Origin: a virus
Direction: 5' to 3' (one strand)
IMG/VR virus record: IMGVR_UViG_3300017593_000599
Span: 1 to 41,668 of that record
DNA: 41,668 nt
This document shows, piece after piece, positions 3,261 through 37,935 of this stretch. Both the position numbers and the translations under genes were made by a program. Position 1 is the stretch's first letter, and each line of letters starts with the position of its first letter. The notes under the pieces were generated by a model. It had not been told where the DNA came from and made no database searches. It saw only the letters and a list, made by a program, of their open reading frames with translations.

Positions 3261-3407
3261 CTGATTTTTAATCTGACTGAGTCTTTCCTCTGACCCTGTA
3301 TCTGCCCATCTGTCTATATCTTCAAGTACTCTGTGCAGCTCCTTCTGAATCTCAAAGACTAGTTGCTCGGCCTGCTCAAAAAGTCCCAGTTTTGAGGAGT
3401 CTTGCAT
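3231..3407 (-). CDS. Small coiled-coil protein, end of the virion/lysis arm
   Basis: 58 aa from ATG 3407 (AGG close upstream); a longer form from ATG 3440 (69 aa) is possible. It is acidic and helical with Leu/Ile/Val heptads (FEQAEQLVFEIQKEL) and no motif. The 5' end overlaps the endolysin 3' end and the 3' end overlaps the convergent plus-strand gene. It is the last gene of the minus arm. A lysis role is possible from position only. Confidence 0.5.
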   Translation of the reverse strand: MQDSSKLGLFEQAEQLVFEIQKELHRVLEDIDRWADTGSEERLSQIKNQLTRVLALLD

Positions 3408-3849
3408 TTTCCTTTGCCCTGTCTGGACATTGCTTGGCATACTTACTTTTTAGAAGCTCCTCCGCTGCCCTGTCCCACTCCTCCCTCTCTAGGGCCTGTA
3501 ACATCCGCCTAAAATCCAACACCCCTTTAATTCCTAAGTTAAATATCATGTCTATTATAACAAGCTGTCTAGTTTCATCAAGGTCTAGGAAAAAAGGAAT
3601 ATGCTCAATCGCTTTTCTATAAGCACGCTGGTAGTCCTTTTCAAATAAAAGGTCGGCAACCTCCCTGTCAATGCCCAAGTCCTCTATGTTGTGGCCCCAG
3701 CCAATGCAGAGTTTTCCAGTTTTGTCTTTGTAAAGGTGAAGTCTTAGCCCTTCATGCTTTTTTATGTATTCATAGGCATCCCTCTTGTGTAGTTCACCTG
3801 CATAGGCCATTGTGGCAATAAGCAGTAAGGCACACAGCAGAGTCCTCAT
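3376..3849 (-). CDS. GH24 lysozyme-type endolysin with N-terminal signal/SAR segment
   Basis: 157 aa, T4 lysozyme-like. It hydrolyses the MurNAc-GlcNAc bond of peptidoglycan. Motifs: Glu33 in HEGLRL, Asp42 in YKDKTG and the IGWGHN turn (49-54). The family pattern is E-x8-D-x5-T; here the Thr position is Cys48. Residues 4-17 are hydrophobic and end in AYA-G, so this is either a Sec signal peptide or a signal-arrest-release segment, and it contains Cys6. Such endolysins reach the periplasm without a large-hole holin. Neighbours are a Gly/Arg-rich small protein and an XhlA-like membrane protein. Enzyme family is secure; the export mode is inference. Confidence 0.9.
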   Translation of the reverse strand: MRTLLCALLLIATMAYAGELHKRDAYEYIKKHEGLRLHLYKDKTGKLCIGWGHNIEDLGIDREVADLLFEKDYQRAYRKAIEHIPFFLDLDETRQLVIIDMIFNLGIKGVLDFRRMLQALEREEWDRAAEELLKSKYAKQCPDRAKENARLLKTGTF

Positions 3850-6108: not shown

Positions 6109-6311
6109 TATCCAGCCTCGGTTCTTTTCTTTTTCTGTCTTCTGTTTAGCTTTACAGGGGCAAAGTAGTGTTTCATTTGACCCCATATCTCATCTCCTTT
6201 CCTTTTGCTTCTTTTAATTGGATTTAGTTCATCCTCTTCCCTTCTCTCTGCTATAAATCTTACCTTGCCAAATTTCAATTGCTTTACCTTCTCTTTCACC
6301 CGTATCCTCAT
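6108..6311 (-). CDS. Small basic hypothetical protein
   Basis: 67 aa, very basic (many Arg/Lys), starting MRIRVKEKVKQ. The start overlaps the stop of the large virion protein (ATGA) and its stop overlaps the next start (TAATG), so translation is probably coupled. Not recognised; a DNA- or RNA-binding role would fit the charge only. Confidence 0.45.
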   Translation of the reverse strand: MRIRVKEKVKQLKFGKVRFIAERREEDELNPIKRSKRKGDEIWGQMKHYFAPVKLNRRQKKKRTEAG

Positions 6312-9300
6312 TTCTTCATCTTTCTAAACCACTCAGGGCTTTCCTTTTCCCATTGCTTGTAAACCTCGTCACAACTTTTTTCAAATTTGTCGGTTAGGTC
6401 GTCAAGCCTGTCAAGATACTTATCTTCCGTAATTTCTCCTCTTAGGGATTTCTTATCAAGTATATCTAATTCTCTCAGGTAATTCTTTTCTAGTTGTCTT
6501 AATCTCCACATTGCCCTGTCATCTGCAAGCCCCCTAGTGTACTTAAACATAAACGGCTTTGTGGTCATATACATCAGCTTGCCAACTTGTCTCCTAAATG
6601 CTTCCTCTGCTTCCTTGTCACCAATCATCCCTTCGCCTGTTATGAGCTGTGTTATCGCAAAAACTCTCTGTGCTATGTATGGCGTCATGTGCAGTGCCCA
6701 TTTTACCCATTCATGTGGGTCTTTCTTATTAGCTATATCCCAGCCGGGAACAATAGGATCTCCGTTTGGTTTTCTATTTTCTACAACTTCCCAAAGGATT
6801 TGGTGGAATGGATGTAGCTCCCATTTCATTGTATTCATAAATGTCTTTGCAGGGCTTGGTACTCCAGGCTTAACAGATTCTGCAAGTTTGTAGATGTATT
6901 TCTGGGGTAAGTTGTGTGGGCCTGAAAAGGTTAAAACAAGCTCTTTTCTGCCTTCCTTTGTATCAACTTCTCTCACATATTTCCTAGCTAGCTGGTCTGT
7001 ACGGAAGCCCATGCGGTTAAGCAGATAGTCTAGGGCTAAGACAAGGCCAACGGTTCTCACCAAGGCATCTGCATATATGGCAGTCTCTTTTGGTATTTCT
7101 CCCTTACCAGTTAACATTCGTTTAAATGTTGCCTCGGTAGCTTCTAGGGTCTTCTGTATCATCTTGCCGTAGAGCTTGGCCATTACTATTTTGTAAGTGG
7201 GAGTGAAAAAGAACTTATTAAGTTCTCTCCTGCCCACAGGGATAAATTTAAGTAACTTGGACTTTGTAGGAACCGAATTACCGTTAAATGCGACTATTCC
7301 ATTTCTTCTCACACAAACTATGTGGTTAGGCACAAAGACAGAATATATCTTACCACTGTATTCCACTTTCTCAAACTTTCTTGTATCAAGAGTTATACGT
7401 GGGGATGAGGTTTTAATTCCTATGTACCATCCTCCATTCCCGTTTATGACTCTTGGCTTTTCTTCGTATATTATACTCTTTTGAGGTTTCTTAAATATTT
7501 TATGTGACTTCCATCCTGCTTTTAAAATTAACTCTTGTAAATCATCTGCCATTTTTTCAGAAGCAGTGTAGATATAATGTAACTTTCCATTTCTAAAATA
7601 ACCATCACCCTTAGCGTAATAAAGGATAAATCTTCGGATGTCTTCTTTTGAGGCCATTTTTATGATTGAGGGAACATACTTTTGTTCTGCTTTACCAAAC
7701 TGTTTTAAATATTCATTCAGTTGCTTACAGCTACATCTCCAATAATCTTTACTTCTTCTCCAGTTTAAACCAGTCTGTCTTAGTATTTCTTCAAAATCTT
7801 GTTTTCTTTCCTTTTGCCATATTCTAACATCATAACCTCTGTTATCTATATCACCCTCTGAGAGGTAAAGCCCCATAAATGCAACAAACGCTTTAAATGG
7901 CATTTTTATATCTTTGTATTTCCATTCTTTGGGACTTTCGGCTTTCCATTCACCTGTTGCTAGCAAACTCCAGTGTTTGTTAGCTTGGCCATATAAATCT
8001 TTTGCCTCTATAAATCTAATTTTCTCTTTGTTTGTATAGTGTACAGCTGCCAATCTATGTGTAGGATTAACCAACATATCACAGACTTTTTGTTTGCACT
8101 GTATCATTTCCCCAATATAATCATACTCAAATTTTTCAATTATAGGCTGATATTCCATCTCCAATGTTCTTGGATTTAGGGTCATAACTTTTTCGCTAGG
8201 TTGTACGTCTTTAAATAATTTCCAGCCGTTTATTGTTAAAATTTCTGTCTTTTCATCATAACATGCATAGTCGCCATGCACCATGCTTGCAATAGTAGCT
8301 GCTTCTCTTGGGCTGAAACCTCTTTCCCTTAAGTACCTGTAGCTAATCTGCCTTATGAGGCCGTCCAGCATCCACGCAGTACCCCAAGAGAATCTATACA
8401 GGTCTTCCATAATTTCTGGGAATGTTTTAGCTTTACGGATACCTTTTTCTTGCTTAACAGTGTCAAAATAGTGTTCTAGCTCATCAAACAACCACTTTCC
8501 GTAGCCTTTCCTTACTCTATCTGCAAATTTGGTAAAGTCTTCAAAGGGAAGAGGAAAAGGAGTTGAGGTAAGACCCCACCTTCTTGCTTCGTACCACTCA
8601 GGTGTTCTTTTAATCATGTCCCTTATAGCTAAGGCTATGCACTTAGGAGTCTTCGGGCTTACCATAGACCCCAACATTACCCCTTGTATTGTGTCATACA
8701 TAGGAAGGATAAAGAAATTCCAGAACCAGAGCATCTTACCAGCATTCATAACCTTTTCAAAAGGAGTGGAGCGGCCAACATCTAAGAACGTCTCAAGGAA
8801 CTGCTCAAACATTGGCTCTACATAGTGGCCCTCACCTACGAGTCTTTTTAGTGTGGAATGTTCTATGGATATGTAACCTGGCTTGGCTTCTGTGGTTATA
8901 AGACCTTCCCTCTTAGCCTCGTTTATTATGTCCATCATGGCAGAGTCAAATGCCTTTCTGCGTGCATAAGAGGCAAGCAGGGAAGAAAGGTCAACGTCTT
9001 TTGGCTCTATAACGCCCTCATCAAGCAGGTTTTTGAGCGTCCATGTTTCTCTCTTTCTTCTAGTAAGCAAGTCTAAGATTTTCATTGCCCGTTTTGGATT
9101 TTCCCTTCTTATTGCCTCAAACCAGACCTGAGTTGGAAGGTGGACGAATTTTATATCTTTAGCCCTTTCAATGTTCTTATCCAGCTTCGCAAGTTCTTCT
9201 TCCCACTGTGCCATCTTCTTGGGGTCTCTGGGTTTCTGGCTTAGCAGTTGTCTTCTTTGTCTCTGTAGGTCTTCTAGCAGCCTTTCTTGAAATGGCTGTT

Positions 9301-11794
9301 TTAATATGCCTTTTTCTTCTAGCTCTTTGTAGCTTTCTTCAAAGTACTTAGCTAGGTCTTCTGTGGCCTGTTTTATCTTGGGTCTTATTTCTTCTGGTAT
9401 GTCCTCAAATGTCGGGTTCTTCTGTTCTGCCTTTAGGGCAACCTTGTAATCATATTCCTTTGGGATGTCTCTGAGTTTGGGTGCTATTTTCTCAATGTCC
9501 CTTTCCATATAGGCAGTTGACCTGCTGTAATAGTCCTTAAATAGCTTTCCTGTAGTAGGAGCATTAAGTTTTTTGAAGTGGTACTCTATGTCAAAAGGCC
9601 CATACAAGGTATCCTTAAACTTTTCTTTCCATTCCCTAGCCTTTTCCCCTACCTTTTTTATCACCTTAGGAAGCTCGGCAACGGGGATACCAGAATAGAA
9701 GGTTGTGTCTTCTGGTTCAGGGATTTCAGGCTTGGGCTTGGGTTTTTCTTCTCTTAGTGCCTCAGTGAGTACCTTCCTTAAGGCTGACTTATTTCCTATT
9801 GCAAACTCCCTTTCTAGTGATTTCACTCGTTTTCCTGTTTCATCTAGTATATCGATTCCCACAAACTTAAATCTGTCTGGACAAACCTTAATTGCTGTTT
9901 CTATTTGTCCCTTGGTAGCATTTTGTGGAATTCTCAGGTAAATATCATCTCCAACAAATCTGTAAGTAATCTTATCGGGCAGAGGTGTAAGGATAGAATG
10001 GTCATCTTCTCCTATCTCTACAATTTTTCTGTCCTTTAATATTGCACCACTCTTGTAAGCTATTTCTGGTGAAAAGCGTTGTGCTTTGTAACCAGTTTCT
10101 TCTTCAAATGTTTTGAGGACATCAGTTAACGCAGGTTTCTTTGGCTTTCCCACAGGCGGAGGCACTTTCTTGTATTTCTTTACTAGGTCTGGGTAATCTT
10201 TTAGCACTCTGTCGGGGACTGGCTCACCCCTTTTGAGAGCTTGTTCTACTGCTCCCTTATGAAACTCTATTGCACTAGCTATAGCCTTAGGAGTCGGTGT
10301 TTCAATTGCTCCTATTTCCCCAAGGTCAGCAAACCGTATTCTCTTACCAGCATCTTTGAAATAATATCCAAGGTAATCTTTTTGCGGAACCTTCCAAGTT
10401 AATCCTTGCCTTACAAAAGAATCTATTTCCCTTGCCTTACGTTCCCCAATCTTCGGAAAACCAAAGGTTTCCTTCCACTCCTTTTTTGTCATCTTCCATG
10501 GCTCTTTAGCCCTTGCCCTCTCTACCTCAACTGCTATTGCCCTTTCCTCAGTTTCCCACTTAACTGGCACTTTTTCAGGGCGTCTGACTAAGATTTCCTT
10601 TACGGCAACTTTTCTCTCGGTAGGCTCAAACTTTACCGGTACCTCTGCCTCAACTGGGATAGTTACCTTTTCTGCTGGCTCTCTTGTAATCCTTGCCCTT
10701 ACTTCTTCAGGTGCTACTATGGGCTCTGTTTCCTTAGCAGGCTCTTTAGCTGATACCTTTTTATTATAAACACGCCAGAATATACTTTCTTTCTCTTCTT
10801 CACTCAGTGGCGGCTTGCCTTTCTTCTTTCTAGTTGTTTCCTGTGCTTTTATTCTTCTATTTGTCTCTTTCACTATTTCCTTTGCAACAGGTCCCTCTAC
10901 CTTAGACAGTGCCTCTGCCCTGCTCATCTTAGGAAGGGCCAGCACTTCTTCTACAGGCGGGGCCTTGGGAGCTTCCTTAGGTTTAACTACCTCACTTGGT
11001 GTAGGTACAGGCGTTTCCTTTCCAAACCAGCCCCTGATAATATTTGCTAGGCCAAGCATAAACGGAAGCCCACTAATTGTGCTGTAAGCTAGGGTCTGTG
11101 CCGCTGGGCCACTTGGAAACCCATAGACAGGAGACCCTGGCATTTTGGTTAACTCAGGCCAAGCCTCTGCTGTCTTTTCTGCTGTCCATTCAAAGGGCTT
11201 GAGTAGGTATTCTATTCCTTTGAACAAATATCTAGTATAAGGAGACCACCTAGGCCCAAGCCAGGGTTCTGTTCTTGCCCTGTACGATCCTATAACTTGT
11301 GCGGCTCTCTCTATGGCTTCTTCTGGTGAAGTAGCTACTTTTTCTGGTAGTGGCACTCCAGTTACCCACTCATAGAGGCGTTTTATTTCAGGGGCAGGTT
11401 GTGCAGCAACCCAGCTGTGAAGCAGTGAGTGTAGGCCAAGAAGTCCTGCGTGAGCCAAGTTAAATAAGCCTAGTGGGCCTTTTACTCCAAATTCAATAGG
11501 AGCTAAGAATATATCTTCGCCTACTTGTTTTATTTTTTCCTTAAGGGGAACAACACCTTTCTTTATGGGCTCTGCCAAGACTTCAGGCGAATAAGCTCTT
11601 TCTGCAAGCCTTCCAAAGTACTCGCCTACGCCTGCAAGGGGAGCTTGTTTTTGTTTTTCCTTGCTGGCAACAGTTTCGGCTGCCATATCTATGAGTTCAT
11701 CAATAGATAACGCTTTGCTTTGCTTTGCAACAACTTCGGCAGCCTTATCTATTAACTCATCTATGGACTTTTCCTTGGCTAAACTAAATTTCAT
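6308..11794 (-). CDS. Large polyvalent-type internal virion protein interrupted by an intein
   Basis: 1828 aa precursor, about 1499 aa after removal of the 329-aa intein. The N-terminus has two copies of SIDELID-x-AAE-x-VA (residues 10-23 and 30-43). A hydrophobic stretch near residues 235-255 and long Lys/Glu/Pro linkers follow, then alpha-helical regions. The extein around the splice site (HGDYA then SVPTKS and PVGRRELNKFFF) resembles the GDY...ER...PFY block of phage large polyvalent proteins, which are packaged and injected with the genome. It follows three ejection-type genes in the late operon, which fits. No polymerase or transglycosylase motif was recognised. The virion role is inference; the intein is well supported. 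Confidence 0.75.
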   Translation of the reverse strand: MKFSLAKEKSIDELIDKAAEVVAKQSKALSIDELIDMAAETVASKEKQKQAPLAGVGEYFGRLAERAYSPEVLAEPIKKGVVPLKEKIKQVGEDIFLAPIEFGVKGPLGLFNLAHAGLLGLHSLLHSWVAAQPAPEIKRLYEWVTGVPLPEKVATSPEEAIERAAQVIGSYRARTEPWLGPRWSPYTRYLFKGIEYLLKPFEWTAEKTAEAWPELTKMPGSPVYGFPSGPAAQTLAYSTISGLPFMLGLANIIRGWFGKETPVPTPSEVVKPKEAPKAPPVEEVLALPKMSRAEALSKVEGPVAKEIVKETNRRIKAQETTRKKKGKPPLSEEEKESIFWRVYNKKVSAKEPAKETEPIVAPEEVRARITREPAEKVTIPVEAEVPVKFEPTERKVAVKEILVRRPEKVPVKWETEERAIAVEVERARAKEPWKMTKKEWKETFGFPKIGERKAREIDSFVRQGLTWKVPQKDYLGYYFKDAGKRIRFADLGEIGAIETPTPKAIASAIEFHKGAVEQALKRGEPVPDRVLKDYPDLVKKYKKVPPPVGKPKKPALTDVLKTFEEETGYKAQRFSPEIAYKSGAILKDRKIVEIGEDDHSILTPLPDKITYRFVGDDIYLRIPQNATKGQIETAIKVCPDRFKFVGIDILDETGKRVKSLEREFAIGNKSALRKVLTEALREEKPKPKPEIPEPEDTTFYSGIPVAELPKVIKKVGEKAREWKEKFKDTLYGPFDIEYHFKKLNAPTTGKLFKDYYSRSTAYMERDIEKIAPKLRDIPKEYDYKVALKAEQKNPTFEDIPEEIRPKIKQATEDLAKYFEESYKELEEKGILKQPFQERLLEDLQRQRRQLLSQKPRDPKKMAQWEEELAKLDKNIERAKDIKFVHLPTQVWFEAIRRENPKRAMKILDLLTRRKRETWTLKNLLDEGVIEPKDVDLSSLLASYARRKAFDSAMMDIINEAKREGLITTEAKPGYISIEHSTLKRLVGEGHYVEPMFEQFLETFLDVGRSTPFEKVMNAGKMLWFWNFFILPMYDTIQGVMLGSMVSPKTPKCIALAIRDMIKRTPEWYEARRWGLTSTPFPLPFEDFTKFADRVRKGYGKWLFDELEHYFDTVKQEKGIRKAKTFPEIMEDLYRFSWGTAWMLDGLIRQISYRYLRERGFSPREAATIASMVHGDYACYDEKTEILTINGWKLFKDVQPSEKVMTLNPRTLEMEYQPIIEKFEYDYIGEMIQCKQKVCDMLVNPTHRLAAVHYTNKEKIRFIEAKDLYGQANKHWSLLATGEWKAESPKEWKYKDIKMPFKAFVAFMGLYLSEGDIDNRGYDVRIWQKERKQDFEEILRQTGLNWRRSKDYWRCSCKQLNEYLKQFGKAEQKYVPSIIKMASKEDIRRFILYYAKGDGYFRNGKLHYIYTASEKMADDLQELILKAGWKSHKIFKKPQKSIIYEEKPRVINGNGGWYIGIKTSSPRITLDTRKFEKVEYSGKIYSVFVPNHIVCVRRNGIVAFNGNSVPTKSKLLKFIPVGRRELNKFFFTPTYKIVMAKLYGKMIQKTLEATEATFKRMLTGKGEIPKETAIYADALVRTVGLVLALDYLLNRMGFRTDQLARKYVREVDTKEGRKELVLTFSGPHNLPQKYIYKLAESVKPGVPSPAKTFMNTMKWELHPFHQILWEVVENRKPNGDPIVPGWDIANKKDPHEWVKWALHMTPYIAQRVFAITQLITGEGMIGDKEAEEAFRRQVGKLMYMTTKPFMFKYTRGLADDRAMWRLRQLEKNYLRELDILDKKSLRGEITEDKYLDRLDDLTDKFEKSCDEVYKQWEKESPEWFRKMKK
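7277..8263 (-). other. Intein with LAGLIDADG homing endonuclease
   Basis: 329 residues (1178-1506 of the precursor). It begins Cys-YDEKTEIL after GDYA and ends VAFNGN before Ser +1. Block A, block B (NPTHRL, His present) and block F (YSVFVPNHIVCVRRNGIVAF) are visible. Endonuclease blocks are FMGLYLSEGD and FILYYAKGDGY, with the catalytic Glu and Asp kept. Two splice residues are unusual: block B has Asn in place of the common Thr (N-P-T-H), and the residue before the last Asn is Gly and not His. The frame is intact, so splicing and homing may be active. Confidence 0.92.
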
Positions 11795-16158: not shown

Positions 16159-16902
16159 CTAAATTACAAACTTTCTTAAGACAAATGAATGCGAACTGCT
16201 ATCACTATTGTGTATCCTTGTGTTGGTAGAGAGTCCAACAAAAGTAAAGCCCATTTCGCTACAGTTAACCCATGAAGAATCTGCATCACAATAGAACTCT
16301 ACGCCAACACTAACAGAATCAGAAATTTTTGTATACAATCCATTTGCCGCTATGTTATATGCAGCACCTGCCGCTAATTGTTGGTCTGCAACTTCACTAA
16401 AGCTGCCTGGGGCTGCTCTGCTGGATATATTTGCATCTAATTTATCTAATTTAGCCGCTCTGGCACTAGTATAGTTGTCATCAAGGGTCTTGATACGTTC
16501 GTATATACTATCACCAGTAGGAGAAGTAGGAACAGCTGTATTAAGTCTATTGTGAACTTTAGTATCTACGTCATCAGGACTAGCCCTTGATGAGACGGCA
16601 GCATCAAGGTTATCTAATTTCGCTGCTCTGGTGCTAGTGTAGTTATCATCTAGAGTCTTTAATCTTTCAAATATACTGTCAGAAGTGGGGCTAGTAGGAA
16701 TAGCTTTGTTTAAACTCTCATCTACCTCCTCGTCAACTGCCGAGATAGCCTTGTCTAAGTTATCCAGTTTTGCAGCTCTAGTAGAAGTGTAGTTATCATC
16801 CAATGTTTTTAATCTTTCATAAATGCTGTCTGTGTTCGGGCTGCTAGGAATAGCTTTGTTCAGTATCCATTCTAGAATAGACCTTATGCTTTCTCTAATC
16901 AT
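16159..16902 (-). CDS. Repeat-containing tail fibre/appendage protein
   Basis: 247 aa. Three near-identical repeats of about 40 residues (15-54, 65-104, 121-161), each with SP-x-x-DSIYERLKTLDDNY, TRAAKLDNLD and AISS, spaced 50-55 residues apart. The RAAKLDNLD-x-A-x-S motif is common in phage tail fibre shafts and collar proteins. The last 80 residues form a beta-rich tip (VGVEFYCDADSSWVNC). Trimeric fibre with a C-terminal receptor or decoration domain is the likely form. Confidence 0.65.
   Translation of the reverse strand: MIRESIRSILEWILNKAIPSSPNTDSIYERLKTLDDNYTSTRAAKLDNLDKAISAVDEEVDESLNKAIPTSPTSDSIFERLKTLDDNYTSTRAAKLDNLDAAVSSRASPDDVDTKVHNRLNTAVPTSPTGDSIYERIKTLDDNYTSARAAKLDKLDANISSRAAPGSFSEVADQQLAAGAAYNIAANGLYTKISDSVSVGVEFYCDADSSWVNCSEMGFTFVGLSTNTRIHNSDSSSHSFVLRKFVI
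16166..16890 (-). repeat. Three in-gene tandem repeats in the fibre gene
   Basis: The coding repeats fall at about 16740-16860, 16590-16710 and 16420-16542 on the minus strand, spaced 150 and about 165 bases apart. DNA as well as protein is conserved (for example the gttatcatc-like and tagttgtcatc-like stretches), pointing to recent duplication. The outer limits are given loosely as the span of the repeat-bearing gene. Confidence 0.6.
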
Positions 16903-16912
16903 ACATTGCCTC

Positions 16913-17245
16913 CTAGCTCATCTTTAAGCCTGATAGATGAAAGTTAATCTTGTCTGCTATATCTACCTTAACCCTTAGCGTTTCAGGATACTTAATATTA
17001 ATGGAAAATTCCTGTGTATCCTTTGCAATTATTGTCTTTTCGTAAGCAATCCAGTCTGCACCTGTAGCGGCATCATCAGTAGCTGTGTGGGCTATACTAA
17101 ATGTATGGTCACTGCTGTCTTGGTTTACTACCCTGAGCACACCTACTACCTGCTCTCCTTCACTGGGTGCGTAGAGTTTTTGTTCATTTGTATTGGCTGG
17201 CCTTAGTGCTGCTATTCGGCCATATTCATAGTTGGTGTATGCCAT
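16913..17245 (-). CDS. Beta-sandwich tail/decoration-like protein
   Basis: 110 aa, beta-rich: VVGVLRVVNQDSSDHTFSIA then strands ending in NFHLSGLKMS. The pattern (SDHTFSIAHTATDDA) looks like small phage virion proteins that decorate tails or bind fibres. Genes on both sides are fibre-like. GGAGG before ATG 17245. No named family. Confidence 0.5.
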   Translation of the reverse strand: MAYTNYEYGRIAALRPANTNEQKLYAPSEGEQVVGVLRVVNQDSSDHTFSIAHTATDDAATGADWIAYEKTIIAKDTQEFSINIKYPETLRVKVDIADKINFHLSGLKMS

Positions 17246-17247
17246 GT

Positions 17248-17559
17248 TTATCCTCCAAAGTTAATCGTGTAAAAGTAACTAAGTTCAGGTCTGCTCACAA
17301 GTAGCCATTTCGAACTTGTGCTGTTCCACGCATACCATCTTTTATTTTCATAACAGTACTTTAATTCTCCCTCTGTGGCACCTTCTCCTAGAGAGCCCTC
17401 ATTGTCTATTAAAGAAAGGACAACGCCTCCTGTTCCATGTGTGTGGTCTTTTGCAGCCTTCTGGTCTAGTTCCTCATATACCTCATCAAAATTTTGATTT
17501 ACTTTGGTTAGCAATGCGTCTTTAACGGTATCTGTACCAAGTATTGTTTGCTTAGCCAT
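17248..17559 (-). CDS. Short tail-fibre-like protein
   Basis: 103 aa. The N-terminal helix TKVNQNFDEVYEELDQKA followed by KDHTHGTGG is typical of phage fibre proteins, as is the C-terminal WYAWNSTSSKWLLV carbohydrate-module-like pattern. Likely a tail appendage or fibre-attachment protein. It starts one base upstream of the stop of the gp10-like gene region, in the same operon. Confidence 0.55.
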   Translation of the reverse strand: MAKQTILGTDTVKDALLTKVNQNFDEVYEELDQKAAKDHTHGTGGVVLSLIDNEGSLGEGATEGELKYCYENKRWYAWNSTSSKWLLVSRPELSYFYTINFGG

Positions 17560-28799: not shown

Positions 28800-29036
28800 A
28801 TGACAGTTGAACGTAGGCTTTTTAGCAAGAGAGAAGCCGCAAAATACCTAGGTATTTCCTTTTCTACCTTACTCAGGCACATCAGGAGAGGCATAATTCC
28901 AATTGTAAAGTTGCATGGGCGTGCGCTTATAGACAAAAAAGACTTAGACAATCTTATCGAAATAAACAAGGTATCTAAGAAGCCTAAGGTAAAAGTAAAA
29001 TACCCTTATGAATACACTAGGAGTGGGCAGATATGA
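28800..29036 (+). CDS. Excisionase/MerR-type HTH DNA-binding protein
   Basis: 78 aa. Residues 8-52 are a clear winged helix of the excisionase family: LFSKREAAKYLGIS, then TLLRHIRRGIIPIVKL and ALIDKKDLD. The C-terminus is basic (KKPKVKVKYP). No integrase is visible in the window, so a role as a transcription regulator at the divergent promoter is more likely than excision. The ATG has no Shine-Dalgarno, which fits a leaderless mRNA. Confidence 0.75.
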   Translation: MTVERRLFSKREAAKYLGISFSTLLRHIRRGIIPIVKLHGRALIDKKDLDNLIEINKVSKKPKVKVKYPYEYTRSGQI

Positions 29037-30916
29037 AAAGGTTTCTTTTTGTTGTGTTAGCCCTTATCTTTTTGGCTACTAGCCTAGATGCCACAACTTG
29101 GTATTTTTGGCGTTACAGGACACATGCCACTGACTGTACGTCTCTTACAGATGGAAGGCTAGGAGATTTGTGTTATGAGGAAGATGATGGATCACTTTAT
29201 ATCTGTGATACTGAAGATGGACTATGTGATACTGCCAGTGAATGGAAATGTGTAAGTAGCTCTGGAGGCACACAAAATGTCTTTCTCTATGTATCAGATG
29301 GCACTAACACAGCCCAAGCAGACAGCCCGACTGATACACTTACTTTTGAGGCAGGCACGGGTATAAGTATAACCGTTGATGAAACCAACGATAAGGTAAC
29401 TATTGCCAGCACGGGAGGAGGCGGTGAAGGAGATATTACCGCTGTTGGTGATGCTACAAGTGGGGACGCATTTACTGCCGATGGCAGTGGTAACGTGTTA
29501 TACTTTGAAGGGGCTACGGCTGATGCCTATGAGACTATTTTACAAGGCCAAGATGTAACCTCTGACGTTACGATAAACTTGCCAGCTTCTACAGGCACAC
29601 TCGTTACCAAGGAGCAAATAGATACAGAAACAGAATTTGAGAGCCTGTTATTCTCTGTTTTTACTCCTAATGATGGTTCTCTGAGTGATGATGATCTATC
29701 CAACAATACTACTGACGATTTGCCTGAGGGTACAACAAACAAATATTGTACACTTACCAATATTCAATCTGTTTGCTCCAATGATTTTCATAACATTGGT
29801 GGAACTGATGATGACGTTCCTGATAGCGATGCGGAGGTACCTGATGACATAACTGTAAGTGGTGGAACAATATCCAATTCAGATATCACTTTAAAGTCAG
29901 GAACATCCCCCACGGCTGAAGGAAGAATTGAATGGGATAGCACCAATGACAGGATTGTTGTAGGAGATGGAACGGGGACTAAGGTTTTTTATAGTGGAGA
30001 TCCTATTTTGGAAACTGAGTTAGACACAGAGGCAGAACTAGAAAGTAAACTTACAGATGTAACTAATGTCTATACTAATAACGATGGTAGCCTAACAGAC
30101 GATGACCTAAGCGACAACTCAATAGGCGACCTGAGTGATGTTGATAAATCAGGCTGGGCAGAGGGTAAACTCTTAAAATTCAATGCCTCAGGAAATCTAG
30201 TTGTAGGCACTGACAATGTTAATGACGCTGATGCCGATGCAACCAATGAGCTGCAAAACATCTTTCAAAATATTACAGATGGTACAAATACGGCAACGGC
30301 AGATAGTACTACTGATACTTTTACCCTAGAAGCAGGGACAGGAATATCTATCACTGTAGATGCCACAAATGATAAAGCAACAATAACCAACACAGGGGAT
30401 ACGGATGCAAGTGACGACCTAACAACCTCAACATCCTTCAGTGGTGATGTCTCAGGAACATACAATAACTTACAACTAGGAAGTGGAGTAGTAACAACTA
30501 CAGAGATAGCCGATGGGACAATAGATGATGGCGATATTAGCTCCAGTGCTGATACTCGCATTGCCGCTATTGAGGTAATAATTGATGGCGGTGGAAATGC
30601 CATAACCACAGGGGTAAAGGCAGATATAGAAGTCCCCTTCAACTGCACGATTCTCCAAGCTACTGCCCTAGCAGACCAGACAGGTTCAATTCAGGTTGAT
30701 ATTTGGAAAGATACCTATGCAAATTTCCCACCTACTGATGCAGATAGCATTACAGGGAGTAACCCAGTTTCAATCTCAAGCTCAAACAAATCTCAAGATT
30801 CTACTCTTAGTGGCTGGACTACAACCATAAATGCTGGGGATATACTTAGGTTTAACGTAGATAGCTGTTCAACAATAACAAGGTGTACAATAAGCCTTAA
30901 GGTGAGGAAAGACTGA
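29033..30916 (+). CDS. Exported tail-fibre-like protein
   Basis: 627 aa. A Sec signal peptide is visible: KR, then FLFVVLALIFLATS, then LDA. The body is fibre-like: two copies of a block DGTNTA-x-ADS-x-TDT with EAGTGISITVD and TNDK (near residues 88-125 and 418-455), plus repeated GSLSDDDLS / GSLTDDDLS. The last 95 residues (EVPFNCTILQATALADQTGS... GDILRFNVDS) match the jelly-roll tip common in phage fibres. Fibre proteins normally have no signal peptide, so this may be a secreted or surface protein. It is coupled to the HTH gene (ATGA). Confidence 0.7.
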   Translation: MKRFLFVVLALIFLATSLDATTWYFWRYRTHATDCTSLTDGRLGDLCYEEDDGSLYICDTEDGLCDTASEWKCVSSSGGTQNVFLYVSDGTNTAQADSPTDTLTFEAGTGISITVDETNDKVTIASTGGGGEGDITAVGDATSGDAFTADGSGNVLYFEGATADAYETILQGQDVTSDVTINLPASTGTLVTKEQIDTETEFESLLFSVFTPNDGSLSDDDLSNNTTDDLPEGTTNKYCTLTNIQSVCSNDFHNIGGTDDDVPDSDAEVPDDITVSGGTISNSDITLKSGTSPTAEGRIEWDSTNDRIVVGDGTGTKVFYSGDPILETELDTEAELESKLTDVTNVYTNNDGSLTDDDLSDNSIGDLSDVDKSGWAEGKLLKFNASGNLVVGTDNVNDADADATNELQNIFQNITDGTNTATADSTTDTFTLEAGTGISITVDATNDKATITNTGDTDASDDLTTSTSFSGDVSGTYNNLQLGSGVVTTTEIADGTIDDGDISSSADTRIAAIEVIIDGGGNAITTGVKADIEVPFNCTILQATALADQTGSIQVDIWKDTYANFPPTDADSITGSNPVSISSSNKSQDSTLSGWTTTINAGDILRFNVDSCSTITRCTISLKVRKD

Positions 30917-31407
30917 TGAAAGTGTTACTTAGTATAATCCTAGTTTTCTCCTTATGTTTGCCTTCTTTTGCTGGATTGCAGGTATTTGCCCAATACAAGA
31001 CCAAGGAAGGAAAAGAATGGCGTGTGGATATAGAGGTTGATGATGACCAAGGAAATAGGTACCACACTGCTAGCTATTTTAAAGAAGAGCCAACACAAGA
31101 GGATATAGATAATCTCACAAAAAGGTTTATTTCCGAGCTAGAAAAACAGCTAGAACATCAGAAAAATCCTTTAAATGTGTTGCCTAGCTTGGAGGAAGTG
31201 GGGTATAGAGAACTTCTTGCCTGTATAGTCAAAAATATTAGGACTAATCCTGATATAAGTCTCTTAGATTTAAAAAAGGCGTGTTCCTCTTATTCTTATT
31301 TTGACTTAGAAAAGTTACAGCAGTTTTTAATGAAAAAGGTGAATCTAGATAGTTTTGATAAATTTAAAACATTTGTCATAAATCATAAATTTGAGGGGAT
31401 TGACTGA
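30916..31407 (+). CDS. Exported hypothetical protein
   Basis: 163 aa. Signal peptide VLLSIILVFSLCLPSFA-G, then a beta-rich segment (EWRVDIEVDDDQGNRYHTA) and a helical C-terminus with two Cys. It overlaps genes on both sides by the TGATG type, in the operon of exported proteins. Not recognised; an assembly chaperone or anchor for the fibre-like protein is one idea. Confidence 0.6.
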   Translation: MKVLLSIILVFSLCLPSFAGLQVFAQYKTKEGKEWRVDIEVDDDQGNRYHTASYFKEEPTQEDIDNLTKRFISELEKQLEHQKNPLNVLPSLEEVGYRELLACIVKNIRTNPDISLLDLKKACSSYSYFDLEKLQQFLMKKVNLDSFDKFKTFVINHKFEGID

Positions 31408-32981
31408 TGCGAAAGATACGTAGGTTGTTATTTTTACCTATTTTCTTTCTTCTTTTTGTATCCTTTGCCTTTGCTGCTCACATTTATGTTGATGTCTCCT
31501 GTACATATAACGGCGATGGAACAACTGCTAGCTGTGCCTCTAGCGACGGTGGAGCTGGTGCGTACAATAACTTGTCTGACCCCTTAGCCAATGCAACGGC
31601 AGGTGACATTATTTGGCTAAGAAGAGGCAATAGCAATATTTCTGTCTCTTCTACTCTGTCTCCTGCAAACGATGGAACAGAGAGTAACCCGATTAAACTT
31701 GTAGGCTGGCCTTATTACGAACAAGTAAGTGGCACCGTTGATGGCCCCATTAGCGGTAAAGAAAAGTTTGGATTTTATGATGCAGAGCTAACAGCAACAG
31801 ATAAAGGACATTATTGCAGTGCGGAAATAGAGTTCACATCAGGTAATAATTCTGGGTTAAAGAGGAAAATCATCTTCTATCAATATGATAGCGGCAATAG
31901 CAGAGGTGAGGTTTATGTATTTCCCGATTTGCCCAATAACATAGCCGCAGGCGATAACTACACAATAACGCTCAAGACAGAAGAATATGACAATAGACCA
32001 CAGGCTGGAATTGATGCAGGTTGGGATAACGATGATTATGTAAGGCCAGTGCTAGATGGTGGAAATGGAGATTTTAAGATATTGGATTTTACTTATGATT
32101 ATTTCTGGGCAGTTTACAATTTAGTTGTAACGAATGTGACAGACATTGGCATCTACATACCTTCATATTTGAAAAATATTATTGGATATAATTTAAGAGC
32201 AATTGCGTCCATACGTTATTATCCACTAGAATACATTGATATTTATGGATGGAATACAACCTCAGATTATGATGCAATTGATATAACTGATTGCTTTGCT
32301 TTGTTAGAGCATGTTCACTTGCAAGGCCATGAATCGGAATATGCATCGGCAATTGGGCCTGCTACAGGTGGAGTGAAGTTAAAAAATTGCAGTTTTGGGC
32401 TAGTCGTCTCTTTTAATACTGCTTTTAAAGGGCCATTTAGAATCGAAGGAGAATCTGTTAGTGTTAATGCTACTACTATAACAGATGATGTTTTCACAGC
32501 AGGCTATGTTAAGCTATCTGGTTATAATTGTGACCCCACTAAATTTCATCAATGGTATTACCAAGGAGAAATCTACAACGTAGACGAAGACGCCACAATT
32601 GATCCTCCATCTGGGGCTACAACGTATATAAAGTTTTTGCCAAACTCTCATTGCAATAGTACCTATCCCCTCAAGTTTTCCTTTAATAGGAGACAGGCAG
32701 CTTCACAGAAGACCTACACATTTAAGATTTACATTCCCAGTGACTGCACAACTCTTACTACATCAGATATTTATGCGGATGTGTGGTATTTGGATGAAAG
32801 CAGCGGCACTCATAGAAAAGAAGAAACATACAATATAAGCACTATAAATACCAATGCTTGGAATGACTTAAGCTTTTCTATTACGCCTGGACAAGAAGGG
32901 ACAGTTTATATTGATATTGTGTTCCAAAAATATGAAAGCGGTTGTTACATAGCTCTAGACCCAAAGTATAGCGTGGAATAA
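31407..32981 (+). CDS. Exported beta-helix-like protein
   Basis: 524 aa. N-terminal signal peptide (FLPIFFLLFVSFAFA-A). The first mature part, HIYVDVSCTYNGDGTT with AGDIIWLRRG and NPIKLVGWP, is the opening of right-handed beta-helix proteins of the pectate-lyase/tailspike kind. The C-terminal 100 residues form a separate beta-domain (YTFKIYIPSDCTT, GTVYIDIVF). Cys residues are many, which fits an oxidising compartment. Polysaccharide binding or cleavage is plausible; active residues were not found. Confidence 0.6.
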   Translation: MRKIRRLLFLPIFFLLFVSFAFAAHIYVDVSCTYNGDGTTASCASSDGGAGAYNNLSDPLANATAGDIIWLRRGNSNISVSSTLSPANDGTESNPIKLVGWPYYEQVSGTVDGPISGKEKFGFYDAELTATDKGHYCSAEIEFTSGNNSGLKRKIIFYQYDSGNSRGEVYVFPDLPNNIAAGDNYTITLKTEEYDNRPQAGIDAGWDNDDYVRPVLDGGNGDFKILDFTYDYFWAVYNLVVTNVTDIGIYIPSYLKNIIGYNLRAIASIRYYPLEYIDIYGWNTTSDYDAIDITDCFALLEHVHLQGHESEYASAIGPATGGVKLKNCSFGLVVSFNTAFKGPFRIEGESVSVNATTITDDVFTAGYVKLSGYNCDPTKFHQWYYQGEIYNVDEDATIDPPSGATTYIKFLPNSHCNSTYPLKFSFNRRQAASQKTYTFKIYIPSDCTTLTTSDIYADVWYLDESSGTHRKEETYNISTINTNAWNDLSFSITPGQEGTVYIDIVFQKYESGCYIALDPKYSVE

Positions 32982-32983
32982 GC

Positions 32984-33226
32984 ATGAAAAAGGTTTTAGC
33001 AGTAGTAGTTGTTTTGTTAGCCCTTTTAACTGGTGCTTGTTTTGGCGAATATGTAGAGTTTACCCTAGCTTGGGGTAATGTTGTTTATCAAGACCCAGAT
33101 ACAACTCAAGATTGGTCAACCTATTGGGGAGAGTATAAAGGATGGTGGGCTGTTGCTGCTGGCCCTGCTGCTCCTACTAAGGTGCAGGTAATAATAAGCA
33201 AAAGGTTAGAAAATGAAAAACAATAA
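32984..33226 (+). CDS. Small exported protein
   Basis: 80 aa. Signal peptide LAVVVVLLALLTGACFG; the Cys could be lipidated, but the preceding residues do not match a strict lipobox. The mature part is Trp/Tyr-rich (WSTYWGEYKGWWAV). Fourth exported gene in a row. Not recognised. Confidence 0.55.
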   Translation: MKKVLAVVVVLLALLTGACFGEYVEFTLAWGNVVYQDPDTTQDWSTYWGEYKGWWAVAAGPAAPTKVQVIISKRLENEKQ

Positions 33227-35171: not shown

Positions 35172-35549
35172 ATGAAGGCTAAAATAGCAGCATTGATTCT
35201 AGTTGCATTCATCCTTACTAGCTGTGCACATAATGCAGGCTTGATGAAAAACTATGATAAGTGGATGAAGCAGGCAGATGAGCTTGCTAAAGTATTGTGT
35301 GCTCATAGTGAGTTTAGCGTTTGTTTTTGGAAGTCTGCACTGGGGCCTGACATAAATAAACTGCCTCTTGAAGCTATAACTATACTTGGTGAAATAGAAA
35401 AAACAATTAAAGGCAAGACTGCCGATGAGCTTACTGATTGTGAAAAAGGCAAAATTTTAGGGTTATGGCTTAGGTTTAGTGCTATAGTCAGTGTTGATTT
35501 AATAGAAAGGGTAACGCCGTATTTAGTTAAATTTGTAGGCACTATATGA
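35172..35549 (+). CDS. Lipoprotein
   Basis: 125 aa. Signal peptide with lipobox LTSC (Cys18): the protein should be lipidated and held in a membrane. The mature part is helical with three more Cys. GGAGG before ATG 35172. Phage lipoproteins serve as superinfection-exclusion factors or outer spanins, but this one is too long for an Rz1-type spanin and not Pro-rich. Role unknown. Confidence 0.65.
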   Translation: MKAKIAALILVAFILTSCAHNAGLMKNYDKWMKQADELAKVLCAHSEFSVCFWKSALGPDINKLPLEAITILGEIEKTIKGKTADELTDCEKGKILGLWLRFSAIVSVDLIERVTPYLVKFVGTI

Positions 35550-36628: not shown

Positions 36629-36892
36629 ATGAAGGTAGGAAGTTTAGTAAAAACAAGGTCTTTTTTGTCAACGGGTGAAATTGGGAAAGTATTAGAAGTT
36701 ATAGATGAAAGACCAGAGCCGCAATACAAGGTACTGCTAGATAGCGGGGTAATGTATTTTTATGAGCACGAACTAGTGCCTATAACAAGCCCCAATCAAA
36801 TAAAAGAGGAGGAAGAAGAAAATGCAAGAAAAGAAAATGAAGGTAAAAAGAATCAAGGTAAAAATCAGGTTTCTGGACAGGCTGTTGGGTAG
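36629..36892 (+). CDS. KOW/SH3-like small protein
   Basis: 87 aa. Residues 1-52 look like a small SH3/KOW barrel (VGSLVKTRSFLSTGEIGKVLEVI... YKVLLDSGVMYFYEHEL). The tail (residues 58-87) is Glu/Lys-rich and disordered, and is encoded in the 71-base overlap with the RAMP-like gene. AGGTG lies six bases before ATG 36629. The barrel could bind nucleic acid. Confidence 0.5.
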   Translation: MKVGSLVKTRSFLSTGEIGKVLEVIDERPEPQYKVLLDSGVMYFYEHELVPITSPNQIKEEEEENARKENEGKKNQGKNQVSGQAVG

Positions 36893-37445
36893 TGTTCCCT
36901 CGGATAAAGAAACCTACATTAACATGATAGCCAGCAAGGCCGACCCAGAAGGCCCTAGTGTTGTTGATGAATTGGAAACATTACCTAAGGAAGAAGAAGA
37001 AAAACCAAGAAAGACATACTTCCACAAAGATGAGCAGGGCAGACCACTTATTTACAACTATGTCATCAAAGGCTTTCTTAAAACCGCCTTTGAAGCCCTG
37101 CAACTAAACGGAGCATGGAAGAAGGTACCTGCCTATAGGCATAAACTGGATCTCTTGGTGTTCGTAGAACCAAGGAGGATTATTTTGGGAGACCAAGTGG
37201 ACGGAGATTATCCTCGTGGGCTTAGGGCTAGAACTATGATGGGGCCTAGGGTTACCTTTATTACAAGTGAGTACATAGAGGCTGGGCATGAAGTAGAATT
37301 TGAAATACACTTGCTGGAAAATAAGGAAATAAAAGCTGATATGTTACGGACTTGCTTTGAGGAATTTGGGCCTTACCACGGGTTGGGTCAGTGGAGGTCT
37401 GGTGGTTGGGGCAGGTTTGAGCTGGTAGAATGGAAGGAAATGTAG
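36822..37445 (+). CDS. RAMP-like (ferredoxin-fold) phage protein
   Basis: 207 aa. The stretch GLGQWRSGGWGRFE (187-200) is the Gly-rich loop typical of RAMP proteins (Cas5/Cas6/Cas7 superfamily). Other conserved-looking blocks are LLGSVPSDKETY, YNYVIKGFLK, LLVFVEPRRI and LRARTMMGPRVTF. I recall a phage family with these blocks, of unknown role. No Cas genes are nearby. GAGGAGG lies nine bases before ATG 36822. A nucleic-acid-binding role in DNA metabolism or defence is inference. Confidence 0.55.
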   Translation: MQEKKMKVKRIKVKIRFLDRLLGSVPSDKETYINMIASKADPEGPSVVDELETLPKEEEEKPRKTYFHKDEQGRPLIYNYVIKGFLKTAFEALQLNGAWKKVPAYRHKLDLLVFVEPRRIILGDQVDGDYPRGLRARTMMGPRVTFITSEYIEAGHEVEFEIHLLENKEIKADMLRTCFEEFGPYHGLGQWRSGGWGRFELVEWKEM

Positions 37446-37692
37446 ATGCTTGGCAGGGCCGTGATTAGCGACGCAGTGGCGATGTAATTGCTGGGCATCG
37501 CATGGAGCCGCAAAGTGCTGGCATGGCGGGGAGGCGCAGACTGTTGGCAATCCTATGTGGGGATGGCATTGGCAGTGCTTGGCTAAGTGTTGAGCTGCAA
37601 ACTAACTGCATTGCGGTGATTGGCCCTGTGGGGTGTGGAAGGTAAAAGCGGAGCCAAGCGTTAAGAAGCGGAGGCTTTGGAGGCAAGGCAAA
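37446..37692. other. GC-rich island without a convincing gene (I)
   Basis: About 57% GC by line count, well above the window. The longest plus-strand frame is 47 codons (ATG 37502 to TAA 37645); it uses CCG, CGC and GCG codons that neighbouring genes avoid and has no clear Shine-Dalgarno. Minus-strand frames are open here only because GC-rich DNA has few stops. In AT-rich thermophile genomes, GC-rich intergenic DNA often marks structured RNA. No tRNA-like T-loop was seen. Confidence 0.5.
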
Positions 37693-37935
37693 ATGAAAAA
37701 GTTAGCATTAATGTTAACCTTAGCCTTCTTGCTTACAGGCATGGTCTATTACAGCGGGCAGGTAGAACCAGATGGCACATTTCACTACTACAGCAAAAAG
37801 GGTACTTATTATCACGGCCAGATTGAGCCTGACGGGACATTTCATATTCACGGCAGTGATGGCAGTTACAGGCATGGCTGGATTGAGCCAGATGGGTCAG
37901 TGCATTATTGGGAGAAAAGGCTAAGGAAAAGGTAA
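37693..37935 (+). CDS. Exported 20-residue-repeat protein
   Basis: 80 aa from ATG 37693 (AAGG four bases upstream; the frame extends further upstream but without a start signal). A signal peptide (LALMLTLAFLLTG) is followed by three repeats spaced 20 residues: GQVEPDGTFH (22-31), GQIEPDGTFH (42-51) and GWIEPDGSVH (62-71). Each should form a beta-hairpin, like MORN or other small hairpin repeats. It ends in a basic tail. It stands between the two GC-rich islands. Not a named family. Confidence 0.6.
   Translation: MKKLALMLTLAFLLTGMVYYSGQVEPDGTFHYYSKKGTYYHGQIEPDGTFHIHGSDGSYRHGWIEPDGSVHYWEKRLRKR

Follow-up and report, generated by a model that had tools for sequence, protein, structure and literature searches.

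The virus record IMGVR_UViG_3300017593_000599, studied here over its whole length of 41,668 bases (the window), carries on its + strand four consecutive genes for proteins with Sec signal peptides (SPs), the first of which is a fibre-like protein. Given also that an SP and a shared four-cysteine module recur in 20 further phage contigs, export of fibre-like proteins via the host secretion machinery seems to be a trait of a group of tailed phages. The window phage is podovirus-like, with a P22-like portal (PF16510, 2.1e-91) and a capsid protein (Phage_capsid_3, 5.4e-42) encoded on the − strand, and the four genes diverge from this leftward late arm. Their assignment to an early-side arm, made in a sequence-only reading, agrees with the window phage, where they lie outside the late arm, but does not extend to most relatives, in which the corresponding cassette is often found within structural clusters. 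The four ORFs were confirmed at positions 29033-30916 (627 aa), 30916-31407 (163 aa), 31407-32981 (524 aa) and 32984-33226 (80 aa), and each start overlaps or nearly touches the stop of the gene before. The operon is probably headed by a gene for a small HTH_17/excisionase-like DNA-binding protein (28800-29036, + strand; Pfam HTH_17, 1.1e-10), the stop of which overlaps the fibre gene start. A promoter scan of the operon returned fewer sites than were obtained in shuffled sequences, and PADLOC gave no match to known defence proteins for any of the four products.

SP calls were based on a simple rule (a basic n-region; an uncharged h-region, 8 residues or longer, with a mean Kyte-Doolittle value of at least 2; small residues at −1/−3 or a lipobox) and on inspection by eye. 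The rule matched 7 of the 62 window ORFs, the four operon genes consecutively among them; the other three were an endolysin, a 125-aa lipoprotein (35172-35549) and a 100-aa ORF at 37633. In other phage loci, which provided the background, 10 of 723 ORFs (~1.4%) were matched, and four consecutive SPs are far beyond chance. The claim that all four proteins begin with a Sec signal peptide was thus upheld. The SP of the 627-aa protein (MKRFLFVVLALIFLATSLDA) comprises aa 1-20 (29033-29092, + strand), with cleavage predicted at ATS^LDA or LDA^TT. Those of the 163-aa protein (MKVLLSIILVFSLCLPSFA^G) and the 524-aa protein (MRKIRRLLFLPIFFLLFVSFAFA^A) comprise aa 1-19 and aa 1-23, and that of the 80-aa protein (MKKVLAVVVVLLALLTGAC) approximately aa 1-21. 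The first three are SPase I-type signals; the lipobox of the 80-aa protein is imperfect at best, and this poor motif may or may not denote a lipoprotein signal.

It is highly improbable that these hydrophobic N-terminal stretches are unused for export and result from chance or from wrongly chosen starts. Such an explanation could draw on the nature of the calls, which come from a simple rule and the eye, and on the SP-less versions of these proteins in another phage, G001 (described below). It is at odds with the occurrence of SPs four in a row and across 20 distinct contigs, and with the homology of the 524-aa protein to its G001 counterpart, which starts at the predicted cleavage point. For the first three operon genes, moreover, the ATG that opens the SP is preceded by an SD-like motif (AGGAG before the 627-aa gene), in agreement with these starts. 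As judged from their sequences, the operon proteins are very probably exported.

The 627-aa protein matched PHROG 35197 (2.9e-32) and the virion structural family PHROG 10330 (2.9e-20). Its last 127 aa (aa 501-627; 30533-30916, + strand) were modelled by AlphaFold as a fibre tip-like beta-sandwich with a pLDDT of 93.6. Among the predicted viral structures of BFVD, this domain resembled fibre-type proteins of uncultured phages at a TM of 0.94 and 53-57% identity, and matches in the PDB were weak, CBM4 and a phage tail fibre among them. The tip domain, which is the part shared with PHROG 10330/cyanophage virion structural proteins, occurs in about 80 other viral loci, mostly at 50-74% identity. 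As a control, we used the 74 ORFs that carry only this C-terminal domain and whose start could be read. Unlike the 627-aa protein, none of the 74 had a convincing SP, and the few matches obtained with a looser rule were not SP-like. A tip-type domain that is SP-less elsewhere is therefore found here on an exported protein. Whereas virion fibres are made without an export signal, all four operon proteins have one, and the 627-aa protein is the only one of them with a fibre-type domain homologous to virion fibre proteins.

A module of ~52 aa (29102-29257, + strand) comes just after the SP of the 627-aa protein, and alignments showed its residues C35, C47, C58 and C65 to be conserved. With the module alone as the query, the SP being left out, we detected it in the 20 further distinct phage contigs. 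The module-bearing ORFs had an SP by the rule in 17 of the 20 contigs and by inspection in the other three: L117, where the n-region is not basic; L114, where the SP resembles a signal anchor; and L118, where it lies on an upstream frame that a frameshift at a run of G would join to the ORF. Several relatives have their SP at an internal start codon, which leaves some freedom in these counts. Taken with the SPs of the operon, these module-bearing fibres strongly support the export of fibre-type proteins. The GC content of the module-bearing contigs ranges from 0.37 to 0.70, which suggests diverse hosts. The module directly follows the SP in about half of the members and is internal in the rest (at aa 300-700 in several), so that it serves as a marker of exported fibres without being an anchor everywhere. 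In L094, the SP and module are fused to a polysaccharide deacetylase (2.3e-10). No match to the module was found among 50,697 cultured-phage records, and 295 and 296 bacterial genomes from two phyla gave no convincing match, with one weak partial hit (3e-4). When the window N-terminus and the spike, 80-aa, L102, L103, L121 and L141 proteins were searched against cultured phages, only short repeat stretches were returned. At two loci (L095:2190-4800 and L100:1537-4936), glycosyltransferase-like and radical-SAM-like genes were noticed by eye directly upstream of exported fibre genes.

The sequence-only reading had described two of the proteins as fibre-built. That description fits the 627-aa protein, with its match to PHROG 10330 and TM of 0.94, but is only weakly supported for the 524-aa protein, for which a beta-helix-like fold had been proposed. 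The latter had no Pfam match; its AlphaFold model, built on a two-sequence alignment, was poor (pLDDT 44), and Foldseek returned weak tailspike matches (TM 0.17). In the model and by Foldseek, its C-terminal ~100 aa form a beta domain resembling lectins and carbohydrate-binding modules (CBMs). A separate protein with an SP-like head in L121 contains a Pfam beta-helix (PF13229, 1.4e-7), and its N-terminus resembles that of the 524-aa protein at 21 of 48 positions, a similarity that is not significant alone. Weakly, then, sequence and model point to a spike- or beta-helix-like protein. A scan of genomes with it yielded no relatives. The 163-aa protein was assigned to no family.

Counterparts of the last three operon genes were found in G001 (IMGVR_UViG_3300005099_000065, 79.7 kb, on which loci L002, L087 and L090 lie), another phage, whose portal is Mu-type and whose capsid belongs to PHROG 1005. 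A search of relatives for an SP-less form of the operon had been proposed as a check, and the outcome was positive: some kilobases downstream of the gene for its major capsid protein, G001 holds SP-less homologues of the 163-, 524- and 80-aa genes, with gene order preserved and one extra 90-aa ORF between them. The 163-aa protein is 33% identical to L002:4237-4701; the alignment of the 524-aa protein with L002:4992-6539 begins at residue 25, just past the predicted cleavage site; and the mature part of the 80-aa protein matches the SP-less N-terminus of a 397-aa protein (L002:6548-7741, E 3e-10). Because the G001 homologues lack SPs, these must have been gained or lost on all three genes, a pattern that would fit selection on export. 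The SP-less 524-aa homologue (G001:C1:8996-10543) has an in-frame TGA at codon 11, where the window protein has Cys. This copy may reflect decay or an assembly error; selenocysteine is not supported, as a SECIS hairpin was no better than in shuffles (z −0.04). Also on G001 are genes for an exported 365-aa protein that contains CXXCH haem motifs (L090:10105-11202; Paired_CXXCH, 2e-5), possibly a phage-borne multihaem cytochrome, and for a signal-bearing protein of ~190 aa with a dockerin-like C-terminal DxDxD segment (L087:7476-8066), the latter gene sitting between one for a beta-helix protein of 708-732 aa and the SP-less operon.

Runs of exported genes are not peculiar to the window. L127 has four in succession (691, 219, 1008 and 280 aa), and at least two each are present in L115, L116, L118, L122, L125 and L126. 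In L103, a fibre, a 260-aa and a 382-aa protein, all with SPs, directly follow terminase- and portal-like genes, and the order of fibre, small and larger protein parallels that of the window. The position of the cassette varies: after the portal (L101, L103), between tail completion and tail tube genes (L094, L119/L120), after tape-measure or distal tail genes (L108, L122), and on the + arm in the window, as expected of cargo. Fibre-like genes without SPs coexist with it, in the window as small late-arm genes (16159-17559, − strand; fibre nature judged by eye from the translations) and in G302 and G309 at tail-module ends. Within the same contigs, fibre-like proteins with an SP contained 3.0% Cys (n = 18) and those without 1.0% (n = 29; p = 8e-5), in a comparison that leaves out the module-bearing ORFs and is not independent of phylogeny or GC. 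Cys-rich exported fibres are predicted by folding in an oxidising compartment. A 1171-aa protein at a tail-tip position (L142:9481-12996, − strand) also has an SP-like start, MYKIRRIIFLLLLFMFFFVPEAHA.

We tentatively favour, at rather less than even confidence, a moron-like cassette of exported adhesins that acts in or on the host envelope. The four proteins would be made with cleavable Sec signals and cross the inner membrane, the cleavage and final location being those predicted from the signals. Disulfides would form in the oxidising compartment via the four-Cys module after the SP, and the fibre tip and the spike- or lectin-like domains would bind the surface glycans or receptors on which such phages rely, and which in some relatives may also be chemically trimmed. 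Masking of receptors could then block superinfecting phage and keep progeny off the debris of lysed cells. This envelope reading follows from the varied positions of the cassette and its coexistence with SP-less fibres, and it agrees with the four SPs in a row, the presence of an SP, by rule or by inspection, in 20/20 module contigs against a convincing one in 0/74 controls, the runs of exported genes, the Cys content and the deacetylase fusion in L094. Coating of the host surface, receptor decoy and exclusion of other phages, all put forward from the sequence, are possible functions of the operon. Export for a non-lytic release, proposed alongside them, is no longer attractive: nothing was found in its favour, and the phage has its own lysozyme-type endolysin with an SP by the rule (3376-3849, − strand; PF00959, 3.1e-11; PHROG 7 endolysin, 1.1e-18). 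No element for outer-membrane export or surface anchoring was seen in the large exported proteins, so in a diderm host they may stay in the periplasm until lysis. Two points count against an envelope cassette: in many relatives it lies in structural (late) clusters, like virion genes, and known exclusion proteins are small while the exported fibres here reach 1,000-1,700 aa.

The location in structural clusters is shared ground with the main competing explanation, which is possible and ranks second: the proteins are virion fibres that pass into the periplasm, where they fold and form disulfides, and that join virions during or after lysis by their conserved N-terminal module. The tip domain, 50-74% identical to SP-less phage proteins, speaks for this, as do a conserved N-terminal module with a variable remainder, the arrangement of fibre anchors, and the position of the SP-less G001 homologues near the major capsid gene. 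However, tailed phages assemble in the cytoplasm, the cassette has no conserved genomic position, fibre-like genes of the ordinary SP-less kind are present alongside it, and the internal module of several members argues that it is not always an N-terminal anchor. The broader proposition that this group of tailed phages routes some virion fibres through host Sec, with periplasmic folding and disulfides, and fits them outside the cytoplasm, is doubtful; if true, it would amount to a new way of assembling tailed phages. Third, and unlikely, the cassette would be cargo of use to the infected or lysogenic host, an exported adhesin, matrix or polysaccharide-modifying protein with no anti-phage role. 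The SP-bearing deacetylase in L094 and beta-helix protein in L121, the lectin/CBM-like C-terminal domain of the 524-aa protein and the HTH_17/excisionase-like gene at the head of the operon are in keeping with such cargo, but no integrase was seen among the window ORFs searched, and the lack of a convincing module match in the 591 bacterial genomes from two phyla is a weak negative. An envelope-acting cassette thus remains our preference.

Tailed phages are not known to export the fibres that they assemble in the cytoplasm, and no report of exported tail fibres was found in the open-access literature. PblA and PblB of Streptococcus phage SM1 are tail-type proteins that reach the bacterial surface, where they serve as adhesins; they are not known to have an SP, whereas Sec signals recur in the exported fibres described here. 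The nearest known kinds are exported exclusion lipoproteins and SP endolysins, and there is a real chance that the operon represents something more. T5 Llp, a precedent for an exported receptor block, is encoded beside the receptor-binding gene, blocks the receptor and prevents nonproductive adsorption to lysed fragments (PMC9586334). Like the operon products, Llp and Cor are phage-encoded and exported, and both are encoded next to receptor-binding genes. They are, however, small lipoproteins with a lipobox and without fibre domains, a description that the operon proteins do not fit, being large fibre- or spike-type, mostly SPase I-type proteins in multi-gene runs. Signal-peptide and SAR endolysins (fOg44 Lys44 and others) show that phages can send a late protein through host Sec (PMC6116005); they are lysis enzymes and not fibres, and the window phage has such a lysozyme too. 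Annotation pipelines label genes of the present kind as tail fibres and use them for host-range prediction. If the products are exported and are not virion parts, such prediction from them is wrong; if they are virion parts, they are made by an unknown route. In both cases, they point to something that uncultured phages repeatedly do at the host envelope, unseen in the cultured-phage collection searched, and the SP with its four-Cys module is a sequence handle for finding a model phage.

Several further features of the window were recorded. A scan of genome contigs with the endolysin, intended for host identification, gave two distant matches only. Within a 1828-aa ORF (6308-11794, − strand), positions ~7360-8263 are likely to encode an intein with a LAGLIDADG endonuclease region, starting with CYDEKTEILTINGWKLF and ending at RRNGIVAFNGN|S; the insert matched PF14528 (2.7e-4) and PHROG thymidylate-synthase/ribonucleotide-reductase families. 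On the right arm, outside the four-gene operon, the exported 125-aa protein (+ strand) has an LTSC lipobox, and the exported protein of ~80-100 aa at 37633-37935 (+ strand) contains GxxxPDGTxHY repeats. Between these two genes, a 207-aa protein (36822-37445, + strand) weakly matched type IV Cas7 (Csf2; E 6.4e-5) in its C-terminal part and is possibly a RAMP-like protein in a phage.
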